Assembly (NCBI RefSeq): GCF_030397665.1
Contig: NZ_JAPUBT010000003.1
Location: 248,001 to 312,000 of the forward strand
Source of the DNA: Janthinobacterium sp. SUN073
Lineage (GTDB): Bacteria > Pseudomonadota > Gammaproteobacteria > Burkholderiales > Burkholderiaceae_D
Reading direction: 5' to 3'
DNA length: 64,000 nt
In this document: positions 27,954-48,784 of the stretch, one piece after another
Numbering within the stretch: position 1 is the stretch's first letter
How the letters are laid out: the number at the start of each line of letters is the position of its first letter
Notes under the pieces: model-generated
Seen by the model: only the letters and a program-made list of their open reading frames with translations
Database searches by the model: none
What the model was told of the DNA's origin: nothing
Translations under genes and position numbers: made by a program

Positions 27954-28070
27954 ATCCGCTGGCGACCATCGATACATCGTCCACTTCCGGCTGCCTCCCA
28001 TGCCCGCCCCGTATCTTAACCGCTGGCGGCCAGATGCATCATCCACGCAACACAACGACAAGGAAACACC

Positions 28071-28613
28071 ATGCACACCCACACTTTGAAGACGCAAGAC
28101 TGGCGCTATGCGGCCCCTGCGCGCCTGCTGCACTGGCTGATGGCCGTGCTGATCCCCGCCATGCTGGCCCTGGGCTGGTATATGATGGAGGTCGAGGACG
28201 ATCCCGGCAGCGAGGTATACTTCAATCTGCATAAATCGCTGGGCTTGCTGCTCCTGCTGCTGCTCGCCGCGCGCGCCGCCTGGCGCCTGGGACACGCGCC
28301 GGCTAGCCTGCCGCCGTCCGTGGCGCCGTGGCAAGCGCGCCTGTCACGCCTGGGGCATGGCTTGCTGTACGCGGGCATGCTGCTGGTGCCGGCGACTGGC
28401 CTGGCGGGAGCGCTGCTGAGCAAGAGCGGCGTGGCCTTCTTCGGCCTGGCCCTGCCGCGCTGGTTCGCGCCCGACCACGCCCTGGCCGAACAATGCTTCG
28501 AACTGCACGAACTGGGCGCCTGGACCCTGGCCGCCCTGATCGTCCTGCACGCCATTGCCGGCCTCAAGCATCTGCTGCTGGACAAGGACGGCGTCTTCCA
28601 GCGCATGCTGTAG
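28071..28613 (+). CDS. Cytochrome b561
   Basis: A 180-residue four-helix membrane cytochrome of the bacterial b561 family. Haem-ligand histidines are visible in RLLHWLMAVL, FNLHKSLGLL, CFELHELGAW and LHAIAGLKHLL. It shuttles electrons from quinol or, in some relatives, oxidises superoxide at the inner membrane. AAGGAAA precedes the ATG at 28071. It is divergent from the two-component/VIT operon and shares the intergenic PmrA/QseB-type site. The 21-base gap to the convergent sigma-factor gene holds no terminator I can see. Confidence 0.9.
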   Translation: MHTHTLKTQDWRYAAPARLLHWLMAVLIPAMLALGWYMMEVEDDPGSEVYFNLHKSLGLLLLLLLAARAAWRLGHAPASLPPSVAPWQARLSRLGHGLLYAGMLLVPATGLAGALLSKSGVAFFGLALPRWFAPDHALAEQCFELHELGAWTLAALIVLHAIAGLKHLLLDKDGVFQRML

Positions 28614-28634
28614 ACGGCTGGCGTGCCATGATGC

Positions 28635-29237
28635 TTATGAGGCAACAGCAAACGATGACGGTCCCGGCTGGAAACCAGCCCGCGCCGTGCGCAAAGCCCG
28701 GCGCGCCGTACCGATGCCGCCGATGACGGTCTGCCCCGTCTGCGCGGCGCAGTGGTCGAGCGCCTGCCGCAGCAGGGTGTCGACGCTGCGCAGCGAGATG
28801 CCGTGGCGCGCGGCCACCTCGTCGCGCGTGGCGTCCTCCAGGCGCAAGCCGAACAGCACCTGGCGGTGGCGCCGCGGCAGGCACGCCACCGCCCGGTCGA
28901 CGGCGGCCAGTTCGGAGCGCACTTCGGCCAGCGTGGCCGGTCCCGCCGCGCCATCTGCCAACTGTTCCAGCACCGCTTCGGCGCCATCCGCGTAGTGCCA
29001 GGGCCGCGCCTGGCGCAGCCGGTCCACGGCCAGGTTGCACGCCACGCGGCAGACGTAGGCATCCATGCTGCTGGCGGGCGGTGCCGGCTTGCCCGCCAGG
29101 CGCAGCCAGGCGTCGTGCAGGCTGTCGCTGGCCAGCTCCGCGCAGCCCAGGTAGCGCGTCAGGCGCCGGTGCAGGCGCGTGTAGTGCGTGGCCAGGTGCG
29201 CCTGCAGGCATGGCGACAACGCTTCCACGCTGGCCAT
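28635..29237 (-). CDS. ECF-type RNA polymerase sigma factor, translationally coupled to the giant exoprotein
   Basis: A 200-residue sigma-70-family ECF factor. Region 2 spans LHRRLTRYLGCAELASDSLHDAWLRLAG to VACNLAVDRLRQ (about 20-80). Region 4 is LPRRHRQVLFGLRLEDATRDEVAARHGISLRSVDTLLRQAL (about 118-165). The ATG at 29237 uses the last A of the exoprotein stop codon (TGATG), so translation depends on ribosomes finishing the 4265-codon gene. A much longer upstream in-frame reading exists but lies entirely inside the exoprotein. No anti-sigma gene is adjacent. A close paralogue sits in the same position at 61202-61933. Confidence 0.88.
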   Translation of the reverse strand: MASVEALSPCLQAHLATHYTRLHRRLTRYLGCAELASDSLHDAWLRLAGKPAPPASSMDAYVCRVACNLAVDRLRQARPWHYADGAEAVLEQLADGAAGPATLAEVRSELAAVDRAVACLPRRHRQVLFGLRLEDATRDEVAARHGISLRSVDTLLRQALDHCAAQTGQTVIGGIGTARRALRTARAGFQPGPSSFAVAS

Positions 29238-31260
29238 CACAGATCCAGCTCCTGCTGCTCCTGGCGCGTCAGGTGGGCGCGCTGAGTGGCACCCGTGCCG
29301 CCAAGGCCCAGGATGGCGACGGGGCTGTCCGGCCGGTAGCTGGCCGCCTTGCCGCGCTTGTCGCCGTCCTCGACCGGCTCGTCGCCAAAGCCCAGCACGC
29401 GCACGGAAAAGATCGATGGCAAGCTGCCGCGCGCCGCCGCCCGCTCGCGCTGCAGCACTTCCTGCGCCGCGCCCGTCGCCTGCGACGCCGCCGCACTGGC
29501 GTTGCTCAGGGCGGCCACGTTCACGGCAGCCAGCACCGGCATGCCACTCGATTTCCCCTGCACCTGGATGTTCGCCGCGTTCACCACCTGCAGCGCCGCC
29601 AGGTTGATATTGCCCGAGACGCGGATGCCCGCCTCGCCCGCGTCGATGGTACCCAGCGGAGCGATCAGGTCGATATCGCCGGCCGGCACTTCCGGTATCG
29701 GCGCCAGCGTGGCGATGCCGGCGCCCGTGCTGGGTACGTCGGACGCCAGCGTCACATTGCCCCATTGGTCATACACGCGCTTGGGCGGCGTGTAGACGAT
29801 GGTCGACTTCGAACCGCGCCCCGCATTGATGTCGCCCAGCGCCGACCAGCCCAGGATGGCACCGCCGAAGGTGGTCATGATGCGGCTTTGGCCCAGCAGC
29901 ATGCTGTCCTGGGCGTACAGCGCGATATCGCCCGCACCCTGCGTGAGCACGCCGGGCACCAGGCCAGGCACCGCGAGCGGCGCCTGGCCCTCCGTACCGA
30001 AGACCTGTTTGCCGCCCGGCGCGAGCATGCTGATGTCGCCGCCGAACAGGGTATTGACGCCAGACGGGCCATACAGGCTGATATCGCCCTGGTAGCCGAT
30101 ACGCGCGCCGTGCGCATCCTGCGCGGGGAACAGCGCCGCGATGGCGTTGCGGCCGCGCAGGTAGCTGCCGAAACGCGGACCTTGCGCATCGTTGTACTCG
30201 CGCCCGCCCGCCTTCAATTCATCGAAGAAGACCTGGCGCGCGAAGATACGCTGCTGCTCGGGCGGCAAGGCGGCAAAACGCGTGCGCGCCTGTTGCGGCG
30301 TGCCGGCGAAACCCAAGCGCGCCGCCAGCCAGGCGGCCAGCTCCGGCGCATAGGTCCTGGCGACCTTGCCCGCCTGTTGTGCCAGCGGCACGCCAGCCTG
30401 GGCCAGGTTGGCCGGGTCCAGGTAGCGCTGCGCGAAGGCGGCGAAATCGACGCCGTTGACGCCGGCTTCGCCCAGCCCCGCCTGCAGCACGATGCCGGCG
30501 CCGGGACGTTGATCGCCAGCCACCACGGCGCCCAGGCTGACCAGCGCACCCTGCTCTTCCATGCGGATATGCCGCCCCGCCGTCAGTTCCAGCGTGCCGG
30601 GACCGGCCACGTTGAAGCTGCTATGCAGGATGTCGCGGCCGGCCGCGACGATGGACACGTCCGTGGCATGCGCATGCACGAACAGGTTGCCCGTGCTGAC
30701 GCCATTGCCATACGCGTTCTCGCGGGTATTGGCGATGGCATTCGGCAGCGCCGTCGGCTGGCCCGGCTGCGTGCCGGAGTTGACAATGTCGCGCCCGGCC
30801 CTCATCCACACGGGGGTGGTGCCCTCGTACCACGTCTGCCCGGCCCGCTGGCCGTTGGCAAACGCCAGAATTTCGCCGCTGCGCAAGCCGACGATATCGC
30901 CCTTGCCCGCGTACAGGCGCGACGGCGTGCCGGCGGCGTCGCCGAGCGGCGCGGCGCTGGGGCTGCCAAACGCGAACAGGGGAAAGCGTGCCAGTGACGA
31001 CACGATGCCGTCCACGCCGCCATTGCCCGCCACGTAGGTGGCCGGCTGCTCATAGCCGGCGAAGGCGGGATGAACGGGCGTGGGCAGGCTCGATGCGGCG
31101 GCGCCCGAGCGGCTCACGGCATAACCGCTGGCATACAGCGAATCGCCGGCCAGCAGGTCGAGCCGGCCGCTGGCCGATGGCGCCAGCAGCATGGAATAGC
31201 CGGGCGCATAATAGTCGTTTCCGCCCAGCGCCGACTTGCCCAGGAAGATGCTGCCATTCG
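29237..31260. repeat. Direct repeat, copy 1: 3' end of the giant exoprotein gene
   Basis: About 2 kb at the 3' end of this gene is homologous, in the same orientation, to 61930-64000. The best-conserved part is about 29430-29870 against 62130-62570, where long stretches differ at only scattered positions (for example the segment encoding GRGSKSTIVYTPPKRVYD). The full extent cannot be fixed because copy 2 leaves the window. Confidence 0.8.
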
Positions 31261-34200
31261 CGGCCACCACCCCCAGCTGCGAAGGAAACAGGAAACGCCC
31301 GTCCGAATCGGCATGGTTGCCCAGGCTGGACGGCGCACGGCTCGAATCGACATCGCCCAGCTGCACGCTCGGCGCCAGGCTGCCGCCGGCGGCGAACAGG
31401 TCGATCGCCGTGCCGTCCGTCCACAGCGAAAACCAGCCATATCCGCCCTGCGCATAGGCCTTGCCATGGGCCGTGAACGCGGACGAATGAGGCGTCTTCA
31501 CGCGGCCCGGATCGCCCGTGCCGGCCAGCACCAAGTCACCCCGCGTGGACACGCGCGCCGCCGCATCGCCCAGCATCAGCGTCGCGCCGCCCGTGGCCGT
31601 GCCCAGCGTGGCGCCGTAGGGATCGTAGGCGCGCTGCTCCTTGCTGTCGTGCTGCTGCGGCATGCCGCCATAATTGAAGGCGACGCCGCCCAGGCTGCCC
31701 GTTTGCAGGGCCAGCGCGCCGCGCAGATTGCCCAGCACGCCGTTCAGGTTCAGGTTCTGGTTCTGGTAATCCGTCGCCACGCCCGGCTGCATGCCAAAGC
31801 CGTTGTTGACGGCCGCCCTGGCCTGCAGGCCGGGATTGAGGTCGCCGCCGATGCGCACGTCCATGTCGCCGCCGCCCGTCAGCAGCATGCCGCCGTCGGC
31901 GCCGACGCGGCCCGTGCCGGCCACGGCCAGCACCAGGCCTTCGCTGCGCGGCGCCTGGGTGCCATCAGCCGAGCCGCGCCGCGCCTGCATGCCCGCGTGG
32001 CCGCCCACATCGACGCTCAGGTTGCCGCCGCCCAGCGTGCCCATGCCCGTGAAGCCCACCAGCATGGGCAGCTTGTCGATGATCGCCTGGTCGGGCTGCA
32101 GGACGCTCGCGCCGCCGGCTTCCTTGATATACGTGCCAAAATTGATCCACCAGCTGGCGGGAATCGGGTCCACGCCGGCCGTGCCGCCCGTGCCCTGGCG
32201 CCACAGCCAGTTGCCCACGTTGGCGCTGCCCGCCTGCCTGCGCAAGTCTTCCTGGCGCGCGACACCGAACGCACTGACGATGTCGCCCGTCAGGTTGCCG
32301 CCCGCGCGCAGCAGCAGATTGCCGCCATGGTCGGGGTACCAGGCCGCATAGGCGCTGGCCGCGCCGCCATCGACCAGGTGCTCATACGCGGCTCCGCCGC
32401 TACCCAGCACCGTCGCGCCGTCGCCGGCGCGCCCGCGCGCCTGATTGTAGGCGGCATTGCCCAGGCTGGCGGTCGAGGTGCCCGCCGTATAGATACCGTA
32501 TGGCGACAGGGTGCTGACGTTGCCGGCCGCGATCAGGTCCAGGTCGCCCGTCCCCGTGCGCAGCACGCTGAAATGCTGGGTCGCTGGCGTCACGCTTTTC
32601 AGCGCGCCGATTTCCACCCGGTCCGGCGTGCCGGGAATCGCCTTGCCCAGCGGGATGCAGAGGTCCGGGTCGCACAGCCCTTCCACATCCAGCGGCACCG
32701 GCTTGCCGGGCAGCCAGGTGGGGTCATACAGGCTGGCGCTGTCGCTCCAGGCATAGTTGTGGCGGTCGCAGGCGCCCTCGTCGCACATGCCTTCAAAATC
32801 AGGCGGCACCGGCGTGCCCGGCTCGTACCCCAGCTCGCCCCCGAACGCATTCCAGAACCAGGCACCGCCCGGCCGCGCCGGCGTGCCCGGGATGATTTTC
32901 CGGTCATACGTTTCATACAGCGCGTAGTGGCTGTCGGCCAGCCGCAAGTCGCCCGCCAGCACGGGCCGGATGCTGCGCGTGTCGGCCGCGCCGGTATCGG
33001 CGCCGGACACGAGCCGCATCGACCACGACAGCGAGCCTTCCGGCAGCATGGGCGCCACCGCCCAGTTACGGCCCTGCACGCCGCCCGTGATGGCACGCAG
33101 CGGCACGCTGAGGGCATCGCCCGGCAGCTTGACCCTGGTATCGGCGGGGATCAGCGCACCGACGCGCAAGGCCAGCGCACCGGCCAGCATGACCCCGTTC
33201 GGACGGAGGTAGTTGTCAAACTGCGCCAGGCTAGGCAATGGCACGCCGGCCGGCCAGGTCAGGCCTTCCAGCGCGACCGTCCCGGGCAATTGCGAACCGG
33301 CGCCCAGCTGCGTGCCTTTCGGCAGCAGCAGCGGCTGGCCCGCAACCAGCGTGCCGGCCGCATGCAGCAGGCGGCCGGCGCTGTCGCGCACGTCCGCGCG
33401 CAGCACCGTATCGACTGGCACTTCCAGCGCCGCCGCCAGGCTGGCCGCCACCGGCAACACGCTGCCCACGGCCAGCGTCGCCGACTGGATGGGCAGGGCA
33501 TAATTCAAGACCTTACCGGCGGGAAACAACGTTCCCTCGGCCAGCACCACGCCATGGCCCGGCACCACCACGTCGCCGCCGTAGGCCTGGCGGCCCGGCG
33601 TCAGCACCCAGCCCTTGTCGTCCGGCGTGGCGGGCGGCGGCGCAAAACCGTCGTTGATGCTGCCAAAGATGTCGAGATTGCCGCCCGCGCGCAGCACCAG
33701 GCTGCCCGGTTCGCCCGAGCCGGCCACGGCGGTTTTGGGCGTCTTCGCGTTCAGGCCCGCATAGCGGTGCGCGGACAGGTCGATGTCGCCGCTGACCACC
33801 AGGTCGCCCTGCGTGACGATTTCCACGCCGGGCCGCACATGCAGCGCCTCGGCGTATGCGGCCGTGCGCAAGCCGGCCAGCTTATTTTCCAGCAAATTGG
33901 CGTTGCCCAGCGCCGCCGCCATGAAGTCCGTGCTGTCGCCATGCTTGCCGTCGAGGTAAGCCTGGTCGATATACTGGTACGGCCGTCCGCCCGCCGCCAG
34001 GTCCGCCTGCGGCAAGCCGTCCGGGCCCGGCACGACCTGGCCACTGGCATCCTTGAGCACGCCTTGTGGCGCATCGCCGTAGCGCGCCGTGCCGTGCACG
34101 GCGATCTCGCGCGCGCCTTCGATGCGCAGGCCTGCGCCAGCCACGATGGCGATGTCGCCGTGCGTGGCCGCGTCGGCGTCGCCGGCGCCACCGGCGCTGC

Positions 34201-37200
34201 CCAGGCGCGCCGCGTGCAAGTCCAGCGTGCCGCGCGCCTGGCCGTCATGCCAGCCCTTGCCGGCGCCGCTGCCGGCGGCCGTGCCGTGGCGCACATCGAG
34301 CCGCGCGCCGCTGTCCAGGGCCAGCACGCCATCGCCTGCATTGATTTCGATCAACGCCCGGTTCGGCGCATCGATGATCTTGCCATAGCTGTCGACGCGC
34401 AGCACGCTGCCATGCGCGTCGAGCACGGCCGTGCCCGCCAGTGTCACGCCATGCTTGCCCGCCAGGCGGATGGCGCCCACGCGCTCGCCGCTGGCGTCGA
34501 TGGTGCCCGCCACCGTCAGGCGGCCATTATCGAGCGAAACATTGACGCTGCCCGCCCTGATCTCGTCGCCGATGGTCAGATCGCCCCGCTTGATCTGGAA
34601 ACTGCGTTCGCCATCGACCTTGCCATCGTTCAGGCGCCGGTTCAGTGCCGCGAAATCGCCCACGTCCTGCGCGCGGATATCCACGGCGCCGCCCTTGTAG
34701 GGCAAGACGGTGCCACCGGCGTCATAGCGGCCGCTGGCGCCGCCCAGCAGCCGGCCCTGCAGGTCGACCATGCCTGCGGCCGCATCGAGGGCGATGGCTT
34801 GCACCTTGCCCCCCTGGTTGTTGCGGGCCGACACATCGATGCCGGCGGCGGCCGCCTGCGCGATATTGCCGCTGCGGCTGGTCAGTATGACTTCGCCGCC
34901 CCAGCTGTACTTGTCCGCATCGTGGATGCTGACCTTGCGTCCTGCCAAGTCCAGCTGCGCGCCGTCCAGCAGGCGCACGTCGCCTGTGGCGGCCAGGGTC
35001 AGTTTACCGCTAGGCAACACCACGGCCGTATCCAGCGTCACGCTATTGCCCGCCAACAGCAGTTCCGCGCCCAGCGCGTCGCTGCCGGCAAGCGCCGGTG
35101 GCCTGGCGCCGCCCGCTCCCGCGATATTGAGCGCCCCGCCTGCCGTGATGCGGTTGACGGAACCGGCTTGTCCCGTCAGCAGCGGCGTGTTCAGGTACAG
35201 GTCGCCGCCTGCGTAGGCGTAGCCCTTGCCCGTCGCATAAGCGCCCTGCGACTGGTGCACGGCCAGGCTGCCCTTGTGGTTGGCCGTGATGCGCTCGCTG
35301 GCATTGAGCCTGACGTCGGCGAAGCCCAGGACCAGGCGCTGCGCGTCGGCCAGCGTGTCCGGGCGCGTGTCGGGCCCATAGCCGAACTCGATGCGCCGCG
35401 CGTTCACGTCCAGCGTGCCGCTGCCCGTGCCGGCGCCGCCGGCCAGCAGGGCGCCGGGCAGCGCTGCCGGGCCGGCCGTGCCGCCATTCCAGACGAGGGT
35501 ATCGGTGATGATGCGCGCCGCCTCGCCCGCCTTGCCGCCGCCATACATGGCCGGCGTCGTCAGCGACAACTTGTCCAGCAGCGACTTGCCGCTGGCATCC
35601 ATGGTGCTCAGGGTCGTGTCGCCGTAGAAATTGAGCGACTGGGCCGCCGTCAGCGACAAGGTCTGCAAGGCCGGCGCGCCCGTGCCGGCATCGCCGCGCA
35701 GCAGGCGGTCCAGGACCTCCTGGTTCAAGGTCAGTCCCGGCGGCAAGGCACCGCGCGCGGCCGCCGCATCGAGCGCCTGCGCACTGCCCACATTGATGCC
35801 GCCGACCGCCAGGGTCAGGTGACGCGTGCCGTAGCGCACGGCGTCGCCGAGCTCGAAGGCACTGCTGGTCGCAAAGGCGATCGAACCTTCCGAATACAGC
35901 GAGGTGACTGCCGCACAAGCTGCCTGCGCGCAAGTGCCGATGCGGATGCTGGCCGGCGTGCCCGCGCTATCGTATTGCGGCGCCAGCATCTGCAGGCGGC
36001 CGTTGGACACGGCCAGCACGCCGCGGTAGCCGGGCTGGTAGACGAAACCGTCGTCGGCATCGAAGGCGGACTTGCCGCGCCCCAGCGTGCTGATGGCCGC
36101 ACCCTGCTCGACCTTGATGCCGGCGCCCTGGTTTGCCACTGTTGAGTTAGCGATGAGCAATACTTCGGCTGCCGACAGCGACGCCCCGTCACGCACGGTG
36201 ATGGCGCCGGCGGCCCCGCCAGTGGAGAAGTCGAGCAGGTTGCCGCCCTGGCCGTAGCGCACCACGGGCAAGTTGCCCAGCGACAGGCGCGCCGCGCCCA
36301 CGGCGTTGACGTCAGCGGCGCGCAGCGATACGGTGCCAAGGTCGGCGCTGGCCTGGCCAACGGCCGCCAGCACTTCCAGATGCCCGCCGTCCATCGGGAA
36401 GGCCAGCGTGCCGCCATGTCCCTTGTCGGCGGGCTGAAAGCGGGCCTGGCCCTGGAAATGGAAATCGATGGCGTCACCATTGCCTGGCATCAACTGGACC
36501 AGCATGGTCCGCGCATCCGCTTCCAGCATGGCGCGCGGCACATCCAGCCTGGCCGCGTCGGCGCGCACGAAATCGGCATAGCTGGTTTCCCGGTACTGCG
36601 AATAACTGCGCAACACGCTGGCCGGCGTCACGATCAGCTGTCGCGACAGGGTGTCACCGATGCCCGTACCGGCCACGGACAGGCGGCCACTGGCGGCCCA
36701 GGAACCATTGCGCATGGCATTCGGCGCGGCCGGCGCGATGCCGGCCTGGCCATTGAACTCGACGCGGAAGGCGCCCGGCAACAAGGCGTAGGTCGACGGC
36801 AGCAAGGTGTAGCTGCCGGCCGGCAAGCCAGGCACGCCGGCGCCTATCGTCACCTGCTGGCCCGGCACGGGCACACTGGCGCCGCGCTCGCCATCGGCGG
36901 GCGCCACCGGCGCCTGCGCGCCCGGCACGATCGCGTACACGGGATTGCTGGCCAGTTCAGGCAGGATGAAGCCGCCGTTGGCCCGCGTCTGCACCAGCGG
37001 GTGGTAGCGCGCATCGGTGGAACCGCCACGGCCGGCCACGAAGGCGGCGCCCAGCAACTGGCCACCGCCCGACAGATCGAGCACGGCGCCCGGCTGCACG
37101 TCGACCGCGCGGCTCTTCATCGCCAGTCCCACCTTCAGATTGGCCGTCGTGCCATAGGTGCCTCCCGCGCCCAGCAGGCTGACATCCTGGCCATCGTAGC

Positions 37201-40200
37201 GCCAGCTGACGCCGTCGGCCGTGCCGCCATACGGCAGCATCAGGCCGGCGCCGCTGACCGACGTCACGCTGCCTGGCAGGAAGCGCAAGGAACGCGTGTC
37301 CGACAGGCTGGCGCCCGTACTGGCGCCCAGCACGAGGCTGCCCAGCGGGGCCAGCAACACGCCGCCCTGCTCGATCGCGGCCGCGCCCAGGGTCAGCGCG
37401 CCGAAGGCGGAAGATGGCGGCAGTGGCGGCGCTGCGTCATCCGTGCCGGCGCGGCCTATGCGCAGCAGGCGCTGCTGCGCATAATCGCTGCCCCCGCCCA
37501 GGTAGCCGGCCCGCACGATGGCGTTGGCGCCCGTTGCCGGATAAATGCGGGCCGCCGTCAGCGCCAGGTCGGCCGGCGTGTTCAGGACGGTATTCTGGCC
37601 GCTGACGGTGGCGCCCAGGAAACGCAAGTCGCCCTGGCTGGCCAGTTCCACGCTGTCGAAGGCACGCCGGTCGAGCACCATCGGCAGTCCTTGCGCGCGC
37701 TCCTTGCCGCCATGCGCACCCGTCGTCAGCACGTCGCGCACGTCGAGCAGCCGGCCCGCTTCCAGGCGCAGGCTGCCCGCAGCCGGCTGCGTCGACACGC
37801 CGCCCGTCACAGTGGGACGTATCTGCCCATCGCCCGTGCCGACGGCGCCGATGCCGGCCAGGCGCATGTACGGCGCCGCCAGCAGCACGCGCGTGGCCGC
37901 CGCCGCGCCGTCGGCCAGTACCAGGGTGGGCGCGTACAGATGCAGACTCTGGCCCAGCGACAGGGACAGGTCGCCATCGAAGCCGAGCATGCCGTTGCTG
38001 AGAATGGACAGATTGCCGAAGCCGCCAGCGGCCACCTGCGAGGCGGCCAGCGCCGCGTGGCCATACACGAACTGCGCGCCCGCCTGTTCCGGCTGCGTGC
38101 CGGCCAGCGTGCCGCCGGCCGGCTGCTGGCGCAGCATGAACTCGCGCGCCTGGCGCACGCGCGCGCCCGCGGTATCGCGGTACTGCGGCGTTTCCAGCGC
38201 GAGAGCAAGCGTGCCGCCGGCCGCGCCGGCGCCGCCCGCGCCGGCTTTCATCTGGCCGTCAAGATACAGGCCGTTGTTCGACGCCAGCGTAATGCTGCCG
38301 CCACGGCTGGCCACTTGCGTGGCGCCCAGACCCGCCACGTCGAGCTGCGCCTGTGTGCCGGAAGCGTCGAGCAGCGCGCCTTCGCGCACGACCACGAACA
38401 GGTGCGCCGCATCGGCCTTGCCCGTGGCCTGGTCGAGCGTGCCGCCCACCACGATGCTGCCACCGTCGCGCACCAGGCCATAGCGCTGGCCGCGCGCATC
38501 GACGGCCGTGGCGGCGCGCGCCGCCGCGTCCAGCACGGCCCCGTCGCCGATCCAGATCGAGCGGCCGTGCCCGGCGCCGTTGGCCGCCTCGGCCGCCTGC
38601 ACATCACCCGCCATGCCTTCCAGCACGATCTTGCCGCCCCAGGCATTCAGGCGGCCATCGAGCGTCAGCTGGCCGATGCCGGCGACCGTGATCGACTGGC
38701 CAGGATCGACTTCCAGCGTGGCGCCGTGGCCGATACGCGCCTGGACGCCGGCCATGTCCGCGCCACCGGAGACGTCCGCCACACCTGCCTGCAGCCGCAA
38801 GCTGGCGCCGAGGCGCTGTGTCAGCACGCCCTTCCTTGCGTCTTCGCGGTATACGGGCGACAGCCACGCTTCCACCTCCTGCCCGGCCAGGCGCAGCAGC
38901 GGCATCGTCACCGCGACCTGCGCGCCGTCTGCCACCGTCAAGCCGCCGTTGCCGCCGATATCGTAGCGGGAAAAACCCTTGTCAAAAAAGCCGCTGTCGA
39001 GCTGCAGCGTGTCGGCCGCCGCCCGCGCCGGTGCGCCAATCAGCACCTTCGCCGCGCGCACCTGCAGCGTGCCACCGCCCTCCATGCCCTGGCCCAGCAG
39101 CGCGCCATCGAAACCCAGGCTGGCCGCGCGCTCGCTGCCCTGCATCCGCGTTTCCAGCGTCACGTTGCCGCCCTTGCCGCCGCGTAGCGTACCACCGGCC
39201 AGCTGCGCCGCGCCCGAGCGCACGTCGATGCGGCTGTCCTGGCGCAGCAGCACATCGCCGCTGCTGCGCAGGGAAACACTGCCGCCATGCCGGTAGGCCA
39301 GCTTGGCGCCAGGCAATGATTCCTCCTCCTGCGGGGACTGGCTCCACAAGCCGCTCGCATCCAGCGTCACGCCGCCAGCCACCTGCACGCCGGCCTTGCC
39401 GCCGGTGGGCGCCTTCAGCACGCTGTCCTCGATGCGGTCGTTGACAGCCTGCCGCAGGATATTGCCGATCTGGATGCCGCCCGCATGCGCCGTCACGTCG
39501 GCATTGACCGCCACAGCGCTGCCGTACAGGGTCACGTTGCCGCCGTCGGCCACGCGCACGGCGCCATTGACGGCGATCGTGTCCGTGGCGGCAATGCGCA
39601 GGGCGCCCAGTTCGAAGCCGTTCAGGCGTGCCGTATCGAGCACCAGGCGCCCCTGGCGCGAGGTCGGCAGCAGCGTGCCCAGGTCCAGGCCTGCGGCGAT
39701 ATCGTCCGCGCCGCCGGCCAGTTGCACGTCGCGCATGACGGCGCTCAGGCTGTCGTGCGTCAGGCCCGTGCTCTTTTCGAACATGGGCACGGAGCGGCCG
39801 ACGATCAGCTGGCCGCGCGTGGCGGCGGCCTTGTGCGACTGATGGTAGCCATCGACACCGGCCTGCGCCGCCTGCTGCTGACCCGGCCCCTGGACGGCGC
39901 TGGCGTCGATCAGCCCTTCCAGCACGGCCGCCTGCGTGCCGATCACCAGCTTGCCGGCATCGCGCCCCACCGTATAGCCGTTTTCCAGCCGCTGCAGCGG
40001 CGCGATCAGCGGACTGCGGTAGGAAGCCGTGGCGGACTCGCCCCAGCGCGCGTGCAGCTCTTCAAAGCCCCGGTACAGGCCCGTGTACAGCAGGTCGCCG
40101 GGCGCGCGCGATGCTTCGTACTGGCGGCCGTCGGCCCCATTCACCCAGGTCTGGCGGATCGAGCCGCCTTCCACCCGCAAGGTACCGCCCGACAGGTTGA

Positions 40201-42034
40201 TGCTGGAGCCGGCCTGCGTGACGACGTCCTTGCCGTCAAAACTGAGCGTACCGCCCTGCGCCATCCATTCTCCCACCGTGTGTCCCTGCATGCCCAGGTA
40301 GCCGCCCACCTCCAGCAAGCCGCCCGCCGTGTACCAGCGGTCGCTGTCATAGCCGTTCGTTCCCTTGGGAACAAACACCAGGCTGCGCCTGTCCAGCCAG
40401 ATATCGCTGCTATTGAGCCCCTTGCCATCGCGGTTGCCCGGTGCGTCGCGCTGTTCGTTGCCCTGCACGTTGACCTTGACGTTGTTGCTTTCCATGGCCA
40501 GCCGCACGCCGGCCGCGCCCGCCACGTCGATCTGTGCGCCATCGCGCACCAGGCTGCGGCCGGCCGCGTTGACGCTGATCTGCCCACCCGTGGCCAGCGT
40601 CAGCGACGCGCCCTGAAAATCCACCGTGCCGGCGCTGTCGATGGCAATGCGCGACTGGTCGCGCCGGTCCGCCAGCGGCAGCATGGACGCTGCGCCGGCC
40701 ACGGCCGGGCCGCGCAAGCCGTCGCGCTGGCTGTCGAGCGCCGTATTGCTCGCATCTTCCTCGATCAGGACGGCTGTCGTGGCGCCCTGTCCCAGCACCA
40801 CGGCGGCCTGTTCGCCCAGCGCCTGCAGGTGCAGCGTGCCGCGCGCATTGACGCTGGTGCTGGCCAGCAGCACGCCATCCTGGCGCACCTCGCGCCCGGC
40901 CAGGGTCGCATCGCCTTCGCGCGCCTGGATCAGCCCCGAATTGGCGACCTTGCCTGTCGCCCCCGCCGCACCGAAGCGCGGCACGACCTCATTGCCACGC
41001 GTGGTGGACAGCGCATTGCCATCCGTGCCCACGCCCTTGCGGATGACGAAGCTGTCGCCAGCGGCCAGCAGCACCTGACCCTTCGGCGCCAGGATCTCGC
41101 CGCCGTTATGCACCTCGGCGCCCGCCAGCAGCACATAACCGCCCCCCTCGGTGGAATTGGCGGGCGCGCGCGCGGCGAGGCGCGCGCCGCGCAGCACGTC
41201 GACCTTGCCCAGTGCATCGCTGATCGATGGCGCGCTGCCATTGCTGTAAATACCGCGCTCGCGGAACTGCGCGTCGCCGATGCCGGCGGCGCCAGCCACC
41301 AGGTTGCGCGTATCGACCTGGCTGGCGCCATGGAAGACGATGCCGTTGCGGTTGACCAGCAGCACCGTGCCGTCACCCTCGATGCGGCCCTGGATCTGGC
41401 TGGGACGCGCCAGCGGATCATTGACCCGGTTCAGCACGGCCCAGTCCTTCTGCTGCTGGAAGGACAAGATCGTATCCTTGCCGACATTCAACGTTTCCCA
41501 GTTCAGGATGGCCTTGTCGGCCGTCTGCCGCACCAGCACCGTCGTCTTGCCTCCCTGCACCGTCTGCACGGGCGCCTGGGCGTTGAGCCAGCCAGCCGTC
41601 AGGCTGTTGGCATCGATCTTCAGGCCGCCATTCACCAGGCCGTCGGGCACGCCGGGCGCAGCGGCCGCTGCCTGGCGTGCCTGTGCCTGCGCCGCCTGCT
41701 GCGCAGCGATCGCGCGCGCGGCCAGATTCAGGTTGTTGAGCGAACGCTGCAACTGCTCGCCAGTCTGCACGCCGGGCACCGCCGGCCGGCCAGCCAGCGG
41801 CACGCCGCCAGGCTGCCGCCCCGTCTGCACCGCTGTCGCCTGCGTCGCGCCCTTGCCGGCAAACCAGGCGCCGCTGAACGCCTGCTGCGCCTGCGCCTGC
41901 TGCACCGTGCCGCCCGCCGCCAGCAGCACGGCAACGGCATACGCGAGTGGCGTGAGCCGCATGGCCGCTTGCGGCGCGGGCACGCGCAGCGTCTGTGTCA
42001 TGGTCGTGCGCCGGGCAGTGTGAAACATGGTCAT
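29237..42034 (-). CDS. Giant filamentous-haemagglutinin-like two-partner-secretion exoprotein (DUF3739)
   Basis: A 4265-residue secreted protein. A long leader with a hydrophobic core (about 28-42) ends near AQAQQ at residues 48-51. A TPS secretion domain follows (about 135-330) with AILNWETLNVGKDTILSF and NRNGIVFHGASQ (residues 228-239), a variant of the NPNGI signature. The middle is Gly/Ala/Asp-rich repeated beta-helix sequence. The last 700-800 residues match the DUF3739 filamentous-haemagglutinin family C-terminus. Three CxxxxC pairs occur at 2035/2040, 3084/3089 and 3121/3126. AGGA about ten bases before 42034 supports the start. The outer-membrane TpsB partner is not in this window. 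Upstream come fecR, sigma and STN genes; downstream an overlapping sigma gene. Adhesin, biofilm or contact functions are possible; none is shown. Confidence 0.9.
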   Translation of the reverse strand: MTMFHTARRTTMTQTLRVPAPQAAMRLTPLAYAVAVLLAAGGTVQQAQAQQAFSGAWFAGKGATQATAVQTGRQPGGVPLAGRPAVPGVQTGEQLQRSLNNLNLAARAIAAQQAAQAQARQAAAAAPGVPDGLVNGGLKIDANSLTAGWLNAQAPVQTVQGGKTTVLVRQTADKAILNWETLNVGKDTILSFQQQKDWAVLNRVNDPLARPSQIQGRIEGDGTVLLVNRNGIVFHGASQVDTRNLVAGAAGIGDAQFRERGIYSNGSAPSISDALGKVDVLRGARLAARAPANSTEGGGYVLLAGAEVHNGGEILAPKGQVLLAAGDSFVIRKGVGTDGNALSTTRGNEVVPRFGAAGATGKVANSGLIQAREGDATLAGREVRQDGVLLASTSVNARGTLHLQALGEQAAVVLGQGATTAVLIEEDASNTALDSQRDGLRGPAVAGAASMLPLADRRDQSRIAIDSAGTVDFQGASLTLATGGQISVNAAGRSLVRDGAQIDVAGAAGVRLAMESNNVKVNVQGNEQRDAPGNRDGKGLNSSDIWLDRRSLVFVPKGTNGYDSDRWYTAGGLLEVGGYLGMQGHTVGEWMAQGGTLSFDGKDVVTQAGSSINLSGGTLRVEGGSIRQTWVNGADGRQYEASRAPGDLLYTGLYRGFEELHARWGESATASYRSPLIAPLQRLENGYTVGRDAGKLVIGTQAAVLEGLIDASAVQGPGQQQAAQAGVDGYHQSHKAAATRGQLIVGRSVPMFEKSTGLTHDSLSAVMRDVQLAGGADDIAAGLDLGTLLPTSRQGRLVLDTARLNGFELGALRIAATDTIAVNGAVRVADGGNVTLYGSAVAVNADVTAHAGGIQIGNILRQAVNDRIEDSVLKAPTGGKAGVQVAGGVTLDASGLWSQSPQEEESLPGAKLAYRHGGSVSLRSSGDVLLRQDSRIDVRSGAAQLAGGTLRGGKGGNVTLETRMQGSERAASLGFDGALLGQGMEGGGTLQVRAAKVLIGAPARAAADTLQLDSGFFDKGFSRYDIGGNGGLTVADGAQVAVTMPLLRLAGQEVEAWLSPVYREDARKGVLTQRLGASLRLQAGVADVSGGADMAGVQARIGHGATLEVDPGQSITVAGIGQLTLDGRLNAWGGKIVLEGMAGDVQAAEAANGAGHGRSIWIGDGAVLDAAARAATAVDARGQRYGLVRDGGSIVVGGTLDQATGKADAAHLFVVVREGALLDASGTQAQLDVAGLGATQVASRGGSITLASNNGLYLDGQMKAGAGGAGAAGGTLALALETPQYRDTAGARVRQAREFMLRQQPAGGTLAGTQPEQAGAQFVYGHAALAASQVAAGGFGNLSILSNGMLGFDGDLSLSLGQSLHLYAPTLVLADGAAAATRVLLAAPYMRLAGIGAVGTGDGQIRPTVTGGVSTQPAAGSLRLEAGRLLDVRDVLTTGAHGGKERAQGLPMVLDRRAFDSVELASQGDLRFLGATVSGQNTVLNTPADLALTAARIYPATGANAIVRAGYLGGGSDYAQQRLLRIGRAGTDDAAPPLPPSSAFGALTLGAAAIEQGGVLLAPLGSLVLGASTGASLSDTRSLRFLPGSVTSVSGAGLMLPYGGTADGVSWRYDGQDVSLLGAGGTYGTTANLKVGLAMKSRAVDVQPGAVLDLSGGGQLLGAAFVAGRGGSTDARYHPLVQTRANGGFILPELASNPVYAIVPGAQAPVAPADGERGASVPVPGQQVTIGAGVPGLPAGSYTLLPSTYALLPGAFRVEFNGQAGIAPAAPNAMRNGSWAASGRLSVAGTGIGDTLSRQLIVTPASVLRSYSQYRETSYADFVRADAARLDVPRAMLEADARTMLVQLMPGNGDAIDFHFQGQARFQPADKGHGGTLAFPMDGGHLEVLAAVGQASADLGTVSLRAADVNAVGAARLSLGNLPVVRYGQGGNLLDFSTGGAAGAITVRDGASLSAAEVLLIANSTVANQGAGIKVEQGAAISTLGRGKSAFDADDGFVYQPGYRGVLAVSNGRLQMLAPQYDSAGTPASIRIGTCAQAACAAVTSLYSEGSIAFATSSAFELGDAVRYGTRHLTLAVGGINVGSAQALDAAAARGALPPGLTLNQEVLDRLLRGDAGTGAPALQTLSLTAAQSLNFYGDTTLSTMDASGKSLLDKLSLTTPAMYGGGKAGEAARIITDTLVWNGGTAGPAALPGALLAGGAGTGSGTLDVNARRIEFGYGPDTRPDTLADAQRLVLGFADVRLNASERITANHKGSLAVHQSQGAYATGKGYAYAGGDLYLNTPLLTGQAGSVNRITAGGALNIAGAGGARPPALAGSDALGAELLLAGNSVTLDTAVVLPSGKLTLAATGDVRLLDGAQLDLAGRKVSIHDADKYSWGGEVILTSRSGNIAQAAAAGIDVSARNNQGGKVQAIALDAAAGMVDLQGRLLGGASGRYDAGGTVLPYKGGAVDIRAQDVGDFAALNRRLNDGKVDGERSFQIKRGDLTIGDEIRAGSVNVSLDNGRLTVAGTIDASGERVGAIRLAGKHGVTLAGTAVLDAHGSVLRVDSYGKIIDAPNRALIEINAGDGVLALDSGARLDVRHGTAAGSGAGKGWHDGQARGTLDLHAARLGSAGGAGDADAATHGDIAIVAGAGLRIEGAREIAVHGTARYGDAPQGVLKDASGQVVPGPDGLPQADLAAGGRPYQYIDQAYLDGKHGDSTDFMAAALGNANLLENKLAGLRTAAYAEALHVRPGVEIVTQGDLVVSGDIDLSAHRYAGLNAKTPKTAVAGSGEPGSLVLRAGGNLDIFGSINDGFAPPPATPDDKGWVLTPGRQAYGGDVVVPGHGVVLAEGTLFPAGKVLNYALPIQSATLAVGSVLPVAASLAAALEVPVDTVLRADVRDSAGRLLHAAGTLVAGQPLLLPKGTQLGAGSQLPGTVALEGLTWPAGVPLPSLAQFDNYLRPNGVMLAGALALRVGALIPADTRVKLPGDALSVPLRAITGGVQGRNWAVAPMLPEGSLSWSMRLVSGADTGAADTRSIRPVLAGDLRLADSHYALYETYDRKIIPGTPARPGGAWFWNAFGGELGYEPGTPVPPDFEGMCDEGACDRHNYAWSDSASLYDPTWLPGKPVPLDVEGLCDPDLCIPLGKAIPGTPDRVEIGALKSVTPATQHFSVLRTGTGDLDLIAAGNVSTLSPYGIYTAGTSTASLGNAAYNQARGRAGDGATVLGSGGAAYEHLVDGGAASAYAAWYPDHGGNLLLRAGGNLTGDIVSAFGVARQEDLRRQAGSANVGNWLWRQGTGGTAGVDPIPASWWINFGTYIKEAGGASVLQPDQAIIDKLPMLVGFTGMGTLGGGNLSVDVGGHAGMQARRGSADGTQAPRSEGLVLAVAGTGRVGADGGMLLTGGGDMDVRIGGDLNPGLQARAAVNNGFGMQPGVATDYQNQNLNLNGVLGNLRGALALQTGSLGGVAFNYGGMPQQHDSKEQRAYDPYGATLGTATGGATLMLGDAAARVSTRGDLVLAGTGDPGRVKTPHSSAFTAHGKAYAQGGYGWFSLWTDGTAIDLFAAGGSLAPSVQLGDVDSSRAPSSLGNHADSDGRFLFPSQLGVVAANGSIFLGKSALGGNDYYAPGYSMLLAPSASGRLDLLAGDSLYASGYAVSRSGAAASSLPTPVHPAFAGYEQPATYVAGNGGVDGIVSSLARFPLFAFGSPSAAPLGDAAGTPSRLYAGKGDIVGLRSGEILAFANGQRAGQTWYEGTTPVWMRAGRDIVNSGTQPGQPTALPNAIANTRENAYGNGVSTGNLFVHAHATDVSIVAAGRDILHSSFNVAGPGTLELTAGRHIRMEEQGALVSLGAVVAGDQRPGAGIVLQAGLGEAGVNGVDFAAFAQRYLDPANLAQAGVPLAQQAGKVARTYAPELAAWLAARLGFAGTPQQARTRFAALPPEQQRIFARQVFFDELKAGGREYNDAQGPRFGSYLRGRNAIAALFPAQDAHGARIGYQGDISLYGPSGVNTLFGGDISMLAPGGKQVFGTEGQAPLAVPGLVPGVLTQGAGDIALYAQDSMLLGQSRIMTTFGGAILGWSALGDINAGRGSKSTIVYTPPKRVYDQWGNVTLASDVPSTGAGIATLAPIPEVPAGDIDLIAPLGTIDAGEAGIRVSGNINLAALQVVNAANIQVQGKSSGMPVLAAVNVAALSNASAAASQATGAAQEVLQRERAAARGSLPSIFSVRVLGFGDEPVEDGDKRGKAASYRPDSPVAILGLGGTGATQRAHLTRQEQQELDL

Positions 42035-42153
42035 GGCAATGATTTCCTGGAAAAATGAACGTGCTGGTTGGTCAGGGAAGGCGCGCTGAAAATGCGCTGC
42101 TCATGACTGGGACGCATGCTGTCCGCCTAACCCGCATTTATTTTTTCCAGAAA

Positions 42154-42190
42154 CACTATCGAAGGCAACGCCGGGAGCGTTCCCATAGTG
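42154..42190 (-). other. Imperfect hairpin between fecR and the giant exoprotein gene
   Basis: CACTAT and ATAGTG (42154-42159 and 42185-42190) enclose an inner stem of AACGC/GCGTT in the 212-base gap between fecR and the exoprotein gene. A run of T residues is absent on the reading strand; an A-rich tract follows instead. It could attenuate read-through from the regulatory genes or stabilise the exoprotein leader mRNA. Confidence 0.45.
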
Positions 42191-42246
42191 GAAGGCGAGA
42201 TACCGTGGGTCCACGCCCGGCTTGATGCGCGTGTGTGTGACAGGGC

Positions 42247-43194
42247 CTAGCTGAGCAAGACCAGATTGCCAGGCAAGTAGGTGAGCCGGGCGCCGTACAG
42301 GTCGCGGATCAGCGCCAGGGCGACATCGAGCTTATCGATGGAAAACTGCGCCTGGACGCGGCGCATGCCCAGCTCTTCGCTTTGCAGGAAGATTCTGCCG
42401 GGCCGGTATCGGTTGAGCTCCTCGACCACCTGCGCCAGCGGCGTGTCATTGAACAGCAGCAGGCCGCGGCGCCAGGCCAGCACGGCATGCGAATCGGCCG
42501 GCGCTGCCAGGCGCAGCGCGGCCGGGCCGTAGCGCAACTGCTGCGACGCGGACAAGGTGGTGCGCCGCTGCGGGTGGTCGACCTCGACCCGGCCTTCCAG
42601 GCAGCTCAATTCCACGTCACCATCCGGAAGGCAGCGCACGTTGAAACTGGCGGCGCGCGCCTGCAGCCGCGCGCCGCCGGCCAGCACGGTACACGCGTCA
42701 CGGCCACCCGTGACGATCTGCGCTTCACCGGCCAGCAATTCGATGAACGCGGCGTCATCCGCGCCGCGCAGGTTCAGGCGTGTCTGCGTATTCATGCGCA
42801 CTTGTGCGCCGCCGGCCAGCGCCAGTTGGCGCTGCTCGCCCGTGCCCGTGCGATAGTCGGCGGCCAGTTCGCCCACAGACGGCCACAGGGCCAGCGGCGG
42901 ACGCAAGGCCAGCAGCGCCACGCCCGTGGCCAGCGCGCCGCCCAGGAAGGCGCGCCGGCCGCGCGACGGTGCGCGCATGGCTTGCTCGCGCGCCACCGCG
43001 GGCGCCGCCATGCGCAGGCCGCGCCACAGCTGCCCCAGTTCCCGCGCCGCCCGGGCGTGGCGGGAACTTTGCGCGCGCCAGCGGCCGAATGCCTGCGCAT
43101 CGGCCTCGCTCGCCCGGCCCGAGCGCAGGCGCACCAGCCATTGCCTCGCCTGTTCCTCGATATCGCCGTCGCTGTCGTTGCTGTGTTGGGTCAT
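42247..43194 (-). CDS. FecR-family sigma-factor regulator
   Basis: A 315-residue FecR-like anti-sigma/regulator. The N-terminal DUF4880-type segment (EEQARQWLVRLRSGRASEADAQAFGRWRAQ) would contact the sigma factor. One transmembrane helix (about 85-105, AFLGGALATGVALLAL) crosses the inner membrane. The periplasmic FecR domain follows (TGTGEQRQLALAGGAQVRMNTQTRLNL, ELLAGEAQIV), then a C-terminal STN-like region (LLFNDTPLAQVVEELNRYRPGRI) that in homologues receives the signal from a receptor. It starts 14 bases after the sigma gene; no clear Shine-Dalgarno site is visible. Unlike typical fecR it precedes an exoprotein rather than a TonB receptor. Confidence 0.9.
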   Translation of the reverse strand: MTQHSNDSDGDIEEQARQWLVRLRSGRASEADAQAFGRWRAQSSRHARAARELGQLWRGLRMAAPAVAREQAMRAPSRGRRAFLGGALATGVALLALRPPLALWPSVGELAADYRTGTGEQRQLALAGGAQVRMNTQTRLNLRGADDAAFIELLAGEAQIVTGGRDACTVLAGGARLQARAASFNVRCLPDGDVELSCLEGRVEVDHPQRRTTLSASQQLRYGPAALRLAAPADSHAVLAWRRGLLLFNDTPLAQVVEELNRYRPGRIFLQSEELGMRRVQAQFSIDKLDVALALIRDLYGARLTYLPGNLVLLS

Positions 43195-43208
43195 GATGAA
43201 GAATCGTA

Positions 43209-43751
43209 TCAGAAGCGGCGCGGGCCGCCACGGGCGGCCATGTCTGCCGGCGCGCCCACGTATTGCTGGCAATGTCGCAGGGCGTGCCGCAACTCTTTTT
43301 CCACCAGGCTCAGCGAAATATCCAGGCGCGCGGCGATCTCGCGATTGAGCTGGCCATCGATATGCGCCGCCAGCAGGATCTCGCGCTGGCGCGGCGTAAG
43401 CTGGCGCAGCGCCGCTTCCAGGGCGATGATCTCGCTGCGCGCCGCGACGATGCGTTCGGGATCGGCCAGTTCATCTTCCACGTCGAACAGGGCGTCGATA
43501 TCGGCATCGTTCAATTTCCGGTGTTCGCGGCGGTACTGGTCGGTGGCGACGTTGACCGCCATCTGCAGCAGGTAGGCGTCGGGATTGCGCACGGCGGTAT
43601 TGCCGGGCATCGACTCCAGGCGCAGCCAGGTCTCCTGCAGGGCATCGCTCGCGCGCTCCCCGGTGCCGACGATGTATTCAAGCTTGCGGCGCAACTGGCC
43701 GTAGCGCGTCACCAGCACGCCGCGCAGGCGCGCGCGCAAGCTATCGGGCAT
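43209..43751 (-). CDS. FecI-like ECF sigma factor
   Basis: A 180-residue ECF sigma factor of the FecI type. Region 2 includes YIVGTGERASDALQETWLRLES and PDAYLLQMAVNVATDQYRRE; region 4 includes LTPRQREILLAAHIDGQLNREIAARLDISLSLVEKELRHAL. GGAGG about nine bases before the ATG at 43751 decides the start, which lies 11 bases inside the STN-protein gene. Together with the downstream fecR it forms a cell-surface-signalling pair; the natural target is the exoprotein gene directly after fecR, by position only. Confidence 0.9.
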   Translation of the reverse strand: MPDSLRARLRGVLVTRYGQLRRKLEYIVGTGERASDALQETWLRLESMPGNTAVRNPDAYLLQMAVNVATDQYRREHRKLNDADIDALFDVEDELADPERIVAARSEIIALEAALRQLTPRQREILLAAHIDGQLNREIAARLDISLSLVEKELRHALRHCQQYVGAPADMAARGGPRRF

Positions 43752-44472
43752 CTGCCTGGTCCTCCGCGGGCGCCGGCTGGCAGGCGCCGCCCGCGTCATC
43801 CGGGCGCAGCAGAATGGTGATCGGCTGCGGCATGGCCGGCGGCGGCGGCTCGAATACCTGCGCACGCAAGTTGCGCGAGATCACCGCATCGCGCAGCGGG
43901 CGTCCCGTGCTGCCCGCCTGTTTCAGCGTCGCCACGCTGCCCGACGCGGCGATGCGCAAGCGTAGCGCCAGACGGTAGCTGCCGGGGCGCGTCAGGGCCG
44001 AGCGGCACAGGACGCGCAGCAATTGCGCCTGCACGCCGCTGACATAAGCGCCATAATCAGCGCCGTCCGCATGCACGGCATCGATGGCATCCAGGGCGAT
44101 GGGACCGCTTTCTGGTGGGAGTGGCGGCGTGGCCGGGGTATCGCCGGCAGGCAGCTGGATGATGGCGGCATTCGCCGCTGGAAAATGGGCCTGCAGGCCG
44201 GTGCCCGACAGCAGGCGCTGCAGCGCCTCCGGCGCCGGCAAGCTGCCTTGCACGGCACTGCTGTAGCGCTGGCGCAAGGCGCCGCTGGGCGCCAGCACGG
44301 AAATCCCCGTGATCAGGCCATACGCCCTGAGCGCATCGGCGAGCGGCTGGGCAGGAATCTGGAACGCATACAGCGACGGCGTGGCGTGCGCCGTTCCTGT
44401 CGCGGCGAAGCCGGCCAGCAGCAGGCATCCGGCCAGCGCCAGCACACTGAGCGACGCCGGGCTTGCTGTCAT
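43741..44472 (-). CDS. Secreted STN-domain protein with TonB C-terminal-like domain
   Basis: A 243-residue exported protein. After a signal peptide (MTASPASLSVLALAGCLLLAG, to about residue 28) comes an STN domain (YAFQIPAQPLADALRAYGLITGISV ... LQRLLSGTGLQAHF, about 32-105), the module that TonB receptors use to signal to FecR. The C-terminal half resembles the TonB C-terminal domain (YRLALRLRIAASGSVATLKQAGSTG, FEPPPPAMPQPITILLRPD). It thus joins, without a beta barrel, a signalling module and a TonB-like module. I chose the ATG at 44472 since it opens the signal peptide. Overlap with the sigma gene indicates one transcript. Confidence 0.8.
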   Translation of the reverse strand: MTASPASLSVLALAGCLLLAGFAATGTAHATPSLYAFQIPAQPLADALRAYGLITGISVLAPSGALRQRYSSAVQGSLPAPEALQRLLSGTGLQAHFPAANAAIIQLPAGDTPATPPLPPESGPIALDAIDAVHADGADYGAYVSGVQAQLLRVLCRSALTRPGSYRLALRLRIAASGSVATLKQAGSTGRPLRDAVISRNLRAQVFEPPPPAMPQPITILLRPDDAGGACQPAPAEDQADAR

Positions 44473-44745
44473 CACGCTATCGTCCTGTTCTCGAAATGGG
44501 GCTGTTGCCGATGGATGACCCATCGACAGCAGCAGGCTACACGGCAAAAGTGACACCATCGTGACACGCCGTGACCAGCCGCCGCCTTCCGCCATTCTTC
44601 ACCCCATGCTCGGCCGCGCTGCCGGGCAGGCGCCGCCCGGCCATCGACAATGGCAAGCACGGCGACTTCTTCATCGAGTACGCGTCGGGTACGAGGCGGC
44701 GGTGGTCAACGCCATCGCCGCCCTGTCCCGTGCCTGAGCGCCTGA

Positions 44746-45057
44746 CTACATGCGCTGGCAGGCGGCCGGCTGGCCGTTACGCGCAGCAGGATGCCAGCTC
44801 TTGCCCGAGCTTTTCACCTTGCAGTTATGCGCATCGCGATTGCTCAGCACATCGCCGCCACACTTGGCCGCCGAGCAGCACTGCTGTACCGTGGCGTTGA
44901 CATCGCATGCCGCGTTGGGCGCGGCGACCGGGGTCTCGGGCTTGGCCATCTCGCCGCTGGCCGGTTTCGCCGGCTTGTCCTGGGCCAGGGCCGGCGCCTG
45001 CGCCAGCACAAGGAAGGACATCGATACCAACAGGGTGCTCAGAAAATGACGTTTCAT
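44746..45057 (-). CDS. Small secreted Cys-rich protein of unknown function
   Basis: A 103-residue protein not matched to a family I know. A signal peptide (MKRHFLSTLLVSMSFLVLAQAPALA) is followed by a Pro/Lys-rich linker and a C-terminal part with six cysteines, including adjacent CysCys in QQCCSAAKCGG and a final AACQRM. Six Cys in about 50 residues suggests three disulfides or metal binding in the periplasm. GAGGAG precedes the ATG at 45057. It is divergent from the hydrolase gene and runs in the same direction as, but about 270 bases before, the STN-sigma-FecR operon. That gap holds no gene I can support. Confidence 0.65.
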   Translation of the reverse strand: MKRHFLSTLLVSMSFLVLAQAPALAQDKPAKPASGEMAKPETPVAAPNAACDVNATVQQCCSAAKCGGDVLSNRDAHNCKVKSSGKSWHPAARNGQPAACQRM

Positions 45058-48722: not shown

Positions 48723-48724
48723 AG

Positions 48725-48768: not shown

Positions 48769-48784
48769 CACACAGGACCAACAC

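Follow-up and report, generated by a model that had tools for sequence, protein, structure and literature searches.

A second ECF sigma factor gene behind giant DUF3739 exoprotein genes in Vre/PUMA3-type cassettes

Which role could a sigma factor gene have at the far end of a giant exoprotein gene? This question is raised by a stretch of 64,000 bp from the genome of Janthinobacterium sp. SUN073 (contig NZ_JAPUBT010000003.1, positions 248,001 to 312,000), here called the window. On its minus strand, a periplasmic protein with an STN domain, an extracytoplasmic function (ECF) sigma factor (sigma 1) and a FecR-type regulator precede a two-partner secretion (TPS) exoprotein with a DUF3739 domain, and a second ECF sigma factor (sigma 2) follows it. 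The gene order, the 4265 aa of the exoprotein and the overlap of its stop codon with the start codon of sigma 2 (TGATG, with the last base of TGA shared) had been described in the original prediction, and sequence and Pfam comparisons bear them out. We observed that the sigma-2 family is found almost only behind giant DUF3739 exoprotein genes. Regarding its function, we tentatively propose, with a probability of about 40 %, that in this cassette of the Vre/PUMA3 type sigma 1 starts an operon of exoprotein and sigma 2, and that sigma 2 feeds back on the exoprotein promoter and so sustains expression.

The sigma-2 family and its place behind the exoprotein gene

Sigma-70 regions 2 and 4 scored above the Pfam cut-offs in both sigma 1 and sigma 2. 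A tree was built from 39 rows (38 sigma factors plus one outgroup, left after near copies of 88 % or more had been removed from 102 sigma sequences), and in it sigma 2 formed a single clade, supported at 100/100, within the VreI-like factors. For 19 orthologs of the second cassette that reaches into the window (L022), the ratio of nonsynonymous to synonymous change (dN/dS) of sigma 2 was 0.28 (0.22 for the core), which indicates purifying selection; the values for sigma 1 and the exoprotein end were 0.11 and 0.22. That sigma 2 is a genuine gene was supported.

Named genomes were scanned with a sigma-2 profile, two short peptide patterns serving as seeds, which resulted in 61 loci from Janthinobacterium, Variovorax, Cupriavidus, Herbaspirillum, Bordetella, Achromobacter, Steroidobacter and two metagenome-assembled genomes (one named Xylophilus); some of them belong to the same Janthinobacterium genomes as the cassettes described below. 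In 55 of the 61, from seven genera and one unclassified metagenome-assembled genome, sigma 2 directly follows a DUF3739 exoprotein gene, its core region placed between 42 nt before and 546 nt after the exoprotein stop, and in two of these 55 (L237 and L246) it is in pieces. The other six are a contig edge (L201), four loci of Achromobacter in which the sigma factor is more distant (L239, L240, L243 and L244) and a fragment (L248).

The order is also conserved in related genomes, where the original prediction had proposed to look for it. We read 85 loci around DUF3739 genes (84 matched the DUF3739 profile made here), mostly from one genus and non-independent. The complete set of STN protein, sigma factor and FecR was present in 70 of them, with sigma 2 next in 32. 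The promoter, PhoB and junction counts given below out of 70 refer to these cassettes (32 with and 38 without sigma 2). Within the genus, DUF3739 itself was detected in 28 of 40 genomes (26 of them above the family cut-off); the figures are 19 of 195 genomes for the family and 14 of 398 for a phylum sample, the own genome included in each case. A tree of 31 exoprotein C-terminal ends needs six changes of the sigma-2 label, at least four of them on supported branches. Sigma 2 was therefore moved or lost several times, and we rejected the idea that it was gained jointly with its exoprotein.

The original prediction saw in the overlap a possible completion sensor, as sigma 2 would be made only when the whole message is translated. 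The junction data did not substantiate this claim. TGATG was found in 22 of the 32 sigma-2 cassettes, which fall into two ortholog groups. The other ten have no ATG at the junction, and their candidate starts are found further downstream, at distances of a few to about 170 nt; in L137, which is orthologous to the window cassette, the junction is TGACG, and both L109 and L137 also have in-frame candidate starts overlapping the exoprotein gene. Among the 55 named loci TGATG was present in 13 (11 from Janthinobacterium, one from Cupriavidus, L232, and the locus L246 with sigma 2 in pieces). No special RNA structure was detected at the junction, folding being no better than that of shuffles (z -0.33 and 0.45). 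Synonymous change goes down to 0.12-0.13 in the last 50 exoprotein codons, and another pair of segments is equally low (0.12-0.13). In the larger TGATG group (the 19 orthologs of the L022 cassette), between 59 and 70 residues separate TGATG from the sigma core, and the frame is kept in 19 of 19, so that the overlapping ATG sets the frame of sigma 2. As TGATG is patchy among sigma-2 cassettes and loci, coupling by overlap seems to be a local form of a wider operon-distal arrangement. The operon-distal position, not TGATG, is the conserved trait of sigma 2, and a completion sensor would be at most one local version of it.

The junction results could also be read more simply, with sigma 2 as an ordinary last gene of the operon and the overlap as gene packing with translational coupling, without sensing or feedback. 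Overlap also joins the STN gene and sigma 1 in the same cassette, where the end of the former and the start of the latter overlap by 11 nt, and both the lack of TGATG conservation across the wider family and the ordinary folding of the junction fit such packing. However, it leaves unexplained why one sigma clade is placed at the 3′ end of DUF3739 genes across genera, and why these cassettes share the promoter class described in the next section. We consider this explanation quite unlikely.

The exoprotein promoter and the possible role of sigma 2

Between FecR and the exoprotein gene we recognised putative ECF-like promoters, which fall into several classes across the cassettes. In one class an A-tract is located 27-31 nt before CGTC. 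It was present in 9 of 10 representatives with sigma 2 versus 2 of 18 without it (shuffle rate in the sigma-2 set 0.6-4 % per sequence), the pattern having been chosen after viewing these 10 + 18 representatives. In 15 sigma-2 loci fetched later, the strict pattern was found in 10 (background 0.3-7 % per sequence) and a relaxed one (spacing 26-32, [CT]GT[CT]) in all 15 (background 3-25 %), but not all of these loci are separate, as three of the promoters are near or full repeats: L298 of L297, L291 of L288, and L286 of L109 from the first set. This later set comprised 16 of 20 fetched stretches, the 15 with sigma 2 and L301. The remaining four (L289, L290, L293 and L303) end before the exoprotein does and were not counted; all of them show the A-tract class. 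Short FecR loci, for which the sigma-2 status was not set, were also kept out of the tally, and some lack this class.

Outside the exoprotein promoters, the A-tract class was found before the STN gene in 1 of 70 cassettes and in none of 15 regions upstream of genes for the export partner TpsB. We also scanned, for this class only, 89 stretches running from the last 200 nt of the exoprotein gene to the sigma-2 core. None was found in 86 of them, the window included, and two of the three positive stretches come from Achromobacter and span the next FecR. Among cassettes that lie close together in the sigma-1 tree, L022 and the window cassette (L026) have both sigma 2 and the A-tract and L143 has neither, which speaks for sigma 2; L301 points the other way.

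Two further observations concern this class and the leaders behind the promoters. At L240:9298-10501 (Achromobacter), a sigma-2-like factor follows FecR and an unknown open reading frame of 208 aa, not an exoprotein, and an A-tract...CGTC site lies ahead. In the leaders of L024, L133, L141, L147, L136 and L140, from the promoter to the exoprotein ATG, we noticed by eye GGCTGGCC...GGGCAGCC-like inverted repeats common to all and, just ahead of the start codon, a GACTCAA stretch; in L110 GACTCAA alone was seen. These repeats could form a structured 5′ leader, of which none was seen in the window cassette.

The proposed feedback would run as follows. PhoB would drive the operon of STN protein, sigma 1 and FecR, and FecR is predicted to hold and then release sigma 1. 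Sigma 1 would start the 13-kb operon of exoprotein and sigma 2, as VreI does for pdtA. Sigma 2, probably served by no other promoter, would be produced only from the distal end of this message, with the stop-start overlap coupling its translation, and would then use the A-tract promoter to act back on the exoprotein gene. Such a loop would not fire before the transcript is complete, which takes roughly five minutes at usual elongation rates, and it could keep the exoprotein switched on once the initial signal has faded. We favour feedback because the sigma-2 clade is tied to the ends of DUF3739 genes and because the A-tract class occurs at exoprotein promoters and is all but absent at those of STN and TpsB genes. 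A Vre-type start by sigma 1 with reinforcement by sigma 2 at the same promoter is in our view the most economical account. The sigma clade would then be a direct handle on Vre-type systems that predicts the promoter served, and sigma 2 the single gene through which positive feedback in a 13-kb operon becomes testable. A stronger version, in which the dedicated 3′-end clade acts as a run-completion amplifier, seems doubtful: only a fully read message would yield the sigma factor that fires the same promoter again, and the 13-kb effector would be committed after one full pass and then held on without further signal or PhoB.

Several points weigh against the feedback. Its main weakness is that the promoter class, known here from sequence, is largely confounded with the sigma-1 type. 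TGATG is missing from the ten cassettes mentioned above, and L301 has an A-tract promoter with no sigma 2 in cis. A genome-wide search for the pattern with TGCGG gave 7 rows, including the promoters of the window cassette and L024, versus 12 in the reversed control; the motif alone is therefore not specific genome-wide and defines no regulon. Finally, no anti-sigma gene adjoins sigma 2, the cassette having one FecR, and unchecked feedback would need another brake.

The single FecR could instead hold both sigma factors, with sigma 2 reading different promoters. Such an arrangement has a precedent in P. aeruginosa, where FpvR holds both FpvI and PvdS (PMC4256889). Two ECF sigma factors and one anti-sigma factor occur in both cases, FecR being a candidate shared regulator in the window cassette, although the second sigma factor of P. 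aeruginosa serves pyoverdine synthesis genes and that of the window is the last gene of an effector operon. Beyond sigma 2 lies a convergent gene for cytochrome b561 on the opposite strand (28071-28613), not an anti-sigma gene, and sigma 2 therefore closes the run. The C-terminal helix-turn-helix of sigma 2, with S..VDT invariant in eight aligned members, differs from that of sigma 1, which would also suit different promoters. However, no other set of sigma 2 promoters was found, TpsB and STN promoters being all but devoid of the A-tract class. We regard a shared FecR as unlikely.

The export partner and PhoB-box-like sites

Linkage to TpsB could be judged in 66 of the 70 cassettes, which had enough sequence. 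Of the 37 cassettes without sigma 2, 24 had TpsB within 2.5 kb behind the exoprotein; of the 29 with sigma 2, none (0) did. Moreover, each of 15 sigma-2 genomes searched (15/15) has exactly one TpsB of the subfamily, 56-68 % identical to the query, all other matches being at or below 31 %. Both results would be expected if exoproteins without a linked TpsB carried sigma 2 to switch on a distant TpsB-ExbB operon in trans. On the other hand, a linked TpsB is also missing from 13 of the 37 cassettes that have no sigma 2, and the exoprotein tree offers too few independent pairs for a test of association. The 15 TpsB upstream regions contain no A-tract promoter, which disfavours trans-activation, and we rejected sigma 2 as the driver of TpsB; the explanation is very improbable. 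By eye, CGTCT was seen in 12 of these 15 regions and an inverted GTCAT-type repeat in 10 of 15, with scores of 9.7-10.5 (p 0.005-0.10 each).

The window exoprotein has no adjoining TpsB, and the six ShlB matches of its own genome lie elsewhere. One complete TpsB, with its own upstream sequence, is found at the start of contig C1, and a second one starts at the end of C13, where L023 is the only cassette of the genome with a TpsB start behind the exoprotein. Many exoproteins appear to share few transporters, and they would presumably use this TpsB. The cassettes show how one transporter gene can stand beside many separately controlled exoprotein genes. In Bordetella ansorpii (genome G628, L235), the matches listed include twelve VreR-like FecR proteins with more than 290 bits, but one TpsB of the subfamily was found. 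The TpsB of L183:1-3284 (minus strand) has behind it an ExbB-like protein that carries N-terminal DUF2341 and laminin-G domains.

PhoB-like boxes were defined as two GTCAT-type repeats 11 nt apart and scored against the PhoB consensus with a cut-off of 10. Before the STN gene, a match purely at the level of sequence reached this score in 56 of 70 cassettes; the window is counted there as a miss, as the scan began from an upstream ATG, and its copy was read by eye. L137 carries a 22-mer identical to that of the window, with a score of 11.4 that was reached in 0 of 300 shuffles. The exoprotein promoter of the window has no box (score 8.5, p 0.38). Before the exoprotein, boxes were found in 0 of 32 cassettes with sigma 2 versus 28 of 38 without it. 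We considered that sigma 2 replaces PhoB at this promoter, which fitted the first set (representatives 0/12 versus 10/19, Fisher p 0.004), and abandoned the idea: boxes were present in 3 of the 15 later sigma-2 loci (L297, its near copy L298, and L300), and independent tree pairs are too few.

Known systems and further features of the genome

The upstream half of the window cassette is not new and represents a Vre/PUMA3-type set. The STN protein of the window cassette shows 44 % identity (over 95 %) to a Paraburkholderia protein that its source names VreA; the comparison with Vre proteins covered this Paraburkholderia protein. As in VreA-VreI-VreR with PdtA/PdtB of P. aeruginosa, the A, I and R genes follow each other in one direction, with overlapping A and I genes (4 bp for vreA-vreI; PMC2729926). 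Both have a barrel-less STN protein with a TolA-like part, a FecR-type regulator, a neighbouring TPS exoprotein and, ahead of the A gene, a PhoB-box-like site. Where TpsB is linked to a cassette of this family, PhoB-box-like sites also precede the exoprotein and TpsB genes, in parallel to the pho boxes of pdtA and phdA. The window cassette differs in that the exoprotein comes directly next, its promoter has no PhoB-like box, TpsB is unlinked and a second ECF sigma factor ends the operon.

Control of a TPS gene by VreI has been published, and PUMA3 has been known since 2009 (Llamas 2009, PMC2729926). The Discussion of that paper describes PUMA3 clusters of Janthinobacterium and Rhodopseudomonas palustris, with the set repeated four times, three followed by tpsA, as in the window, and one by tpsB and exbBD; a second sigma factor behind tpsA is not mentioned in its abstract and the parts of the main text covered (Figure S5 lay outside this scope). 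No such factor was named among the titles and abstract starts listed in our literature search, nor was DUF3739 mentioned in the literature searched, most subscription papers being outside the coverage. According to the literature searched, sigma 2 behind the exoprotein gene would be the new element compared with published PUMA3 sets.

The original prediction was right about a FecIR-type set with a barrel-less STN protein before the exoprotein, and judging from gene order and Pfam there is no TonB-dependent receptor with a barrel within the window cassette. It missed that the upstream set is of the Vre/PUMA3 kind, for which control of a TPS exoprotein is known and which has been described in Janthinobacterium (PMC2729926). 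The proposed role of the STN protein as trigger is doubtful, since VreA was found not to be needed for sigma factor activation in P. aeruginosa (PMC7035377). The abstract of a 2020 paper states that the signal opening the Vre system is still unknown. FecIRA-type iron sets share the FecI-kind ECF sigma factor and the STN domain with the cassette; in contrast, their target is a TonB-dependent receptor with barrel and plug. Such a case lies nearby on the plus strand (47257-51211), where an ordinary FecI-like sigma factor is accompanied by a TonB-dependent receptor that has STN, plug and barrel.

Table 1. Features of the cassette and of its paralogue within the window
Feature	Position	Strand	Basis or remark
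PhoB-box-like pair GTGTCAC-N4-GTGTCAC + TTTT, GTGTCACGATGGTGTCACTTTT	44546..44567	-	about 75-95 nt upstream of the STN start; sequence read by eye
VreA-like periplasmic protein, 243 aa, STN lobe and TolA/TonB-like C-terminal lobe, no barrel	43741..44472	-	sequence comparison
ECF sigma factor 1, VreI-like, 180 aa	43209..43751	-	sigma-70 regions 2 and 4, Pfam
FecR/VreR-like anti-sigma factor, predicted, 315 aa	42247..43194	-	PF04773 E 5e-15, DUF4880 E 8e-12
Candidate ECF promoter of the exoprotein gene (A-tract, TGCGG, CGTC)	42111..42146	-	CGTC end about 77 nt before ATG
TPS-DUF3739 exoprotein, 4265 aa	29237..42034	-	Pfam: N-terminal TPS secretion domain and C-terminal DUF3739
ECF sigma factor 2, 200 aa	28635..29237	-	sigma-70 regions 2 and 4, Pfam
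Sigma 2 of the second cassette (L022), 243 aa	61202..61933	-	overlap ATGATGG with its exoprotein; cassette runs off the right end of the window

In the region 26000-48000 no Rfam family reached its gathering score. A scan of 28000-45000 found no sigma-70 promoter (0), and terminator-like sites in the same region were at shuffle level (8 versus 7.1).

The genome has 6.45 Mb in 34 contigs and encodes five DUF3739 exoproteins, each preceded by its own set of STN protein, sigma factor and FecR. Besides the window cassette these are L022, whose 4228-aa DUF3739 exoprotein has its 3′ part in the window (61202-64000, minus strand), and L023, L024 and L025 on other contigs. Sigma 2 stands behind three of the five, with an overlap in the window cassette and L022 and with a gap in L024. 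L025 has no sigma 2, and L023 stops 446 nt past the exoprotein, within the start of the TpsB gene. The cassette on contig C30 of the same genome (L186:7427-11836, minus strand) contains a DUF3739 exoprotein of 3779 aa with no sigma 2 behind it. It is followed by a protein of 190 aa weakly resembling the STN/TonB-C profile, a trypsin-PDZ protease and an S41 peptidase, and the open reading frames of L119 look similar to this downstream set.

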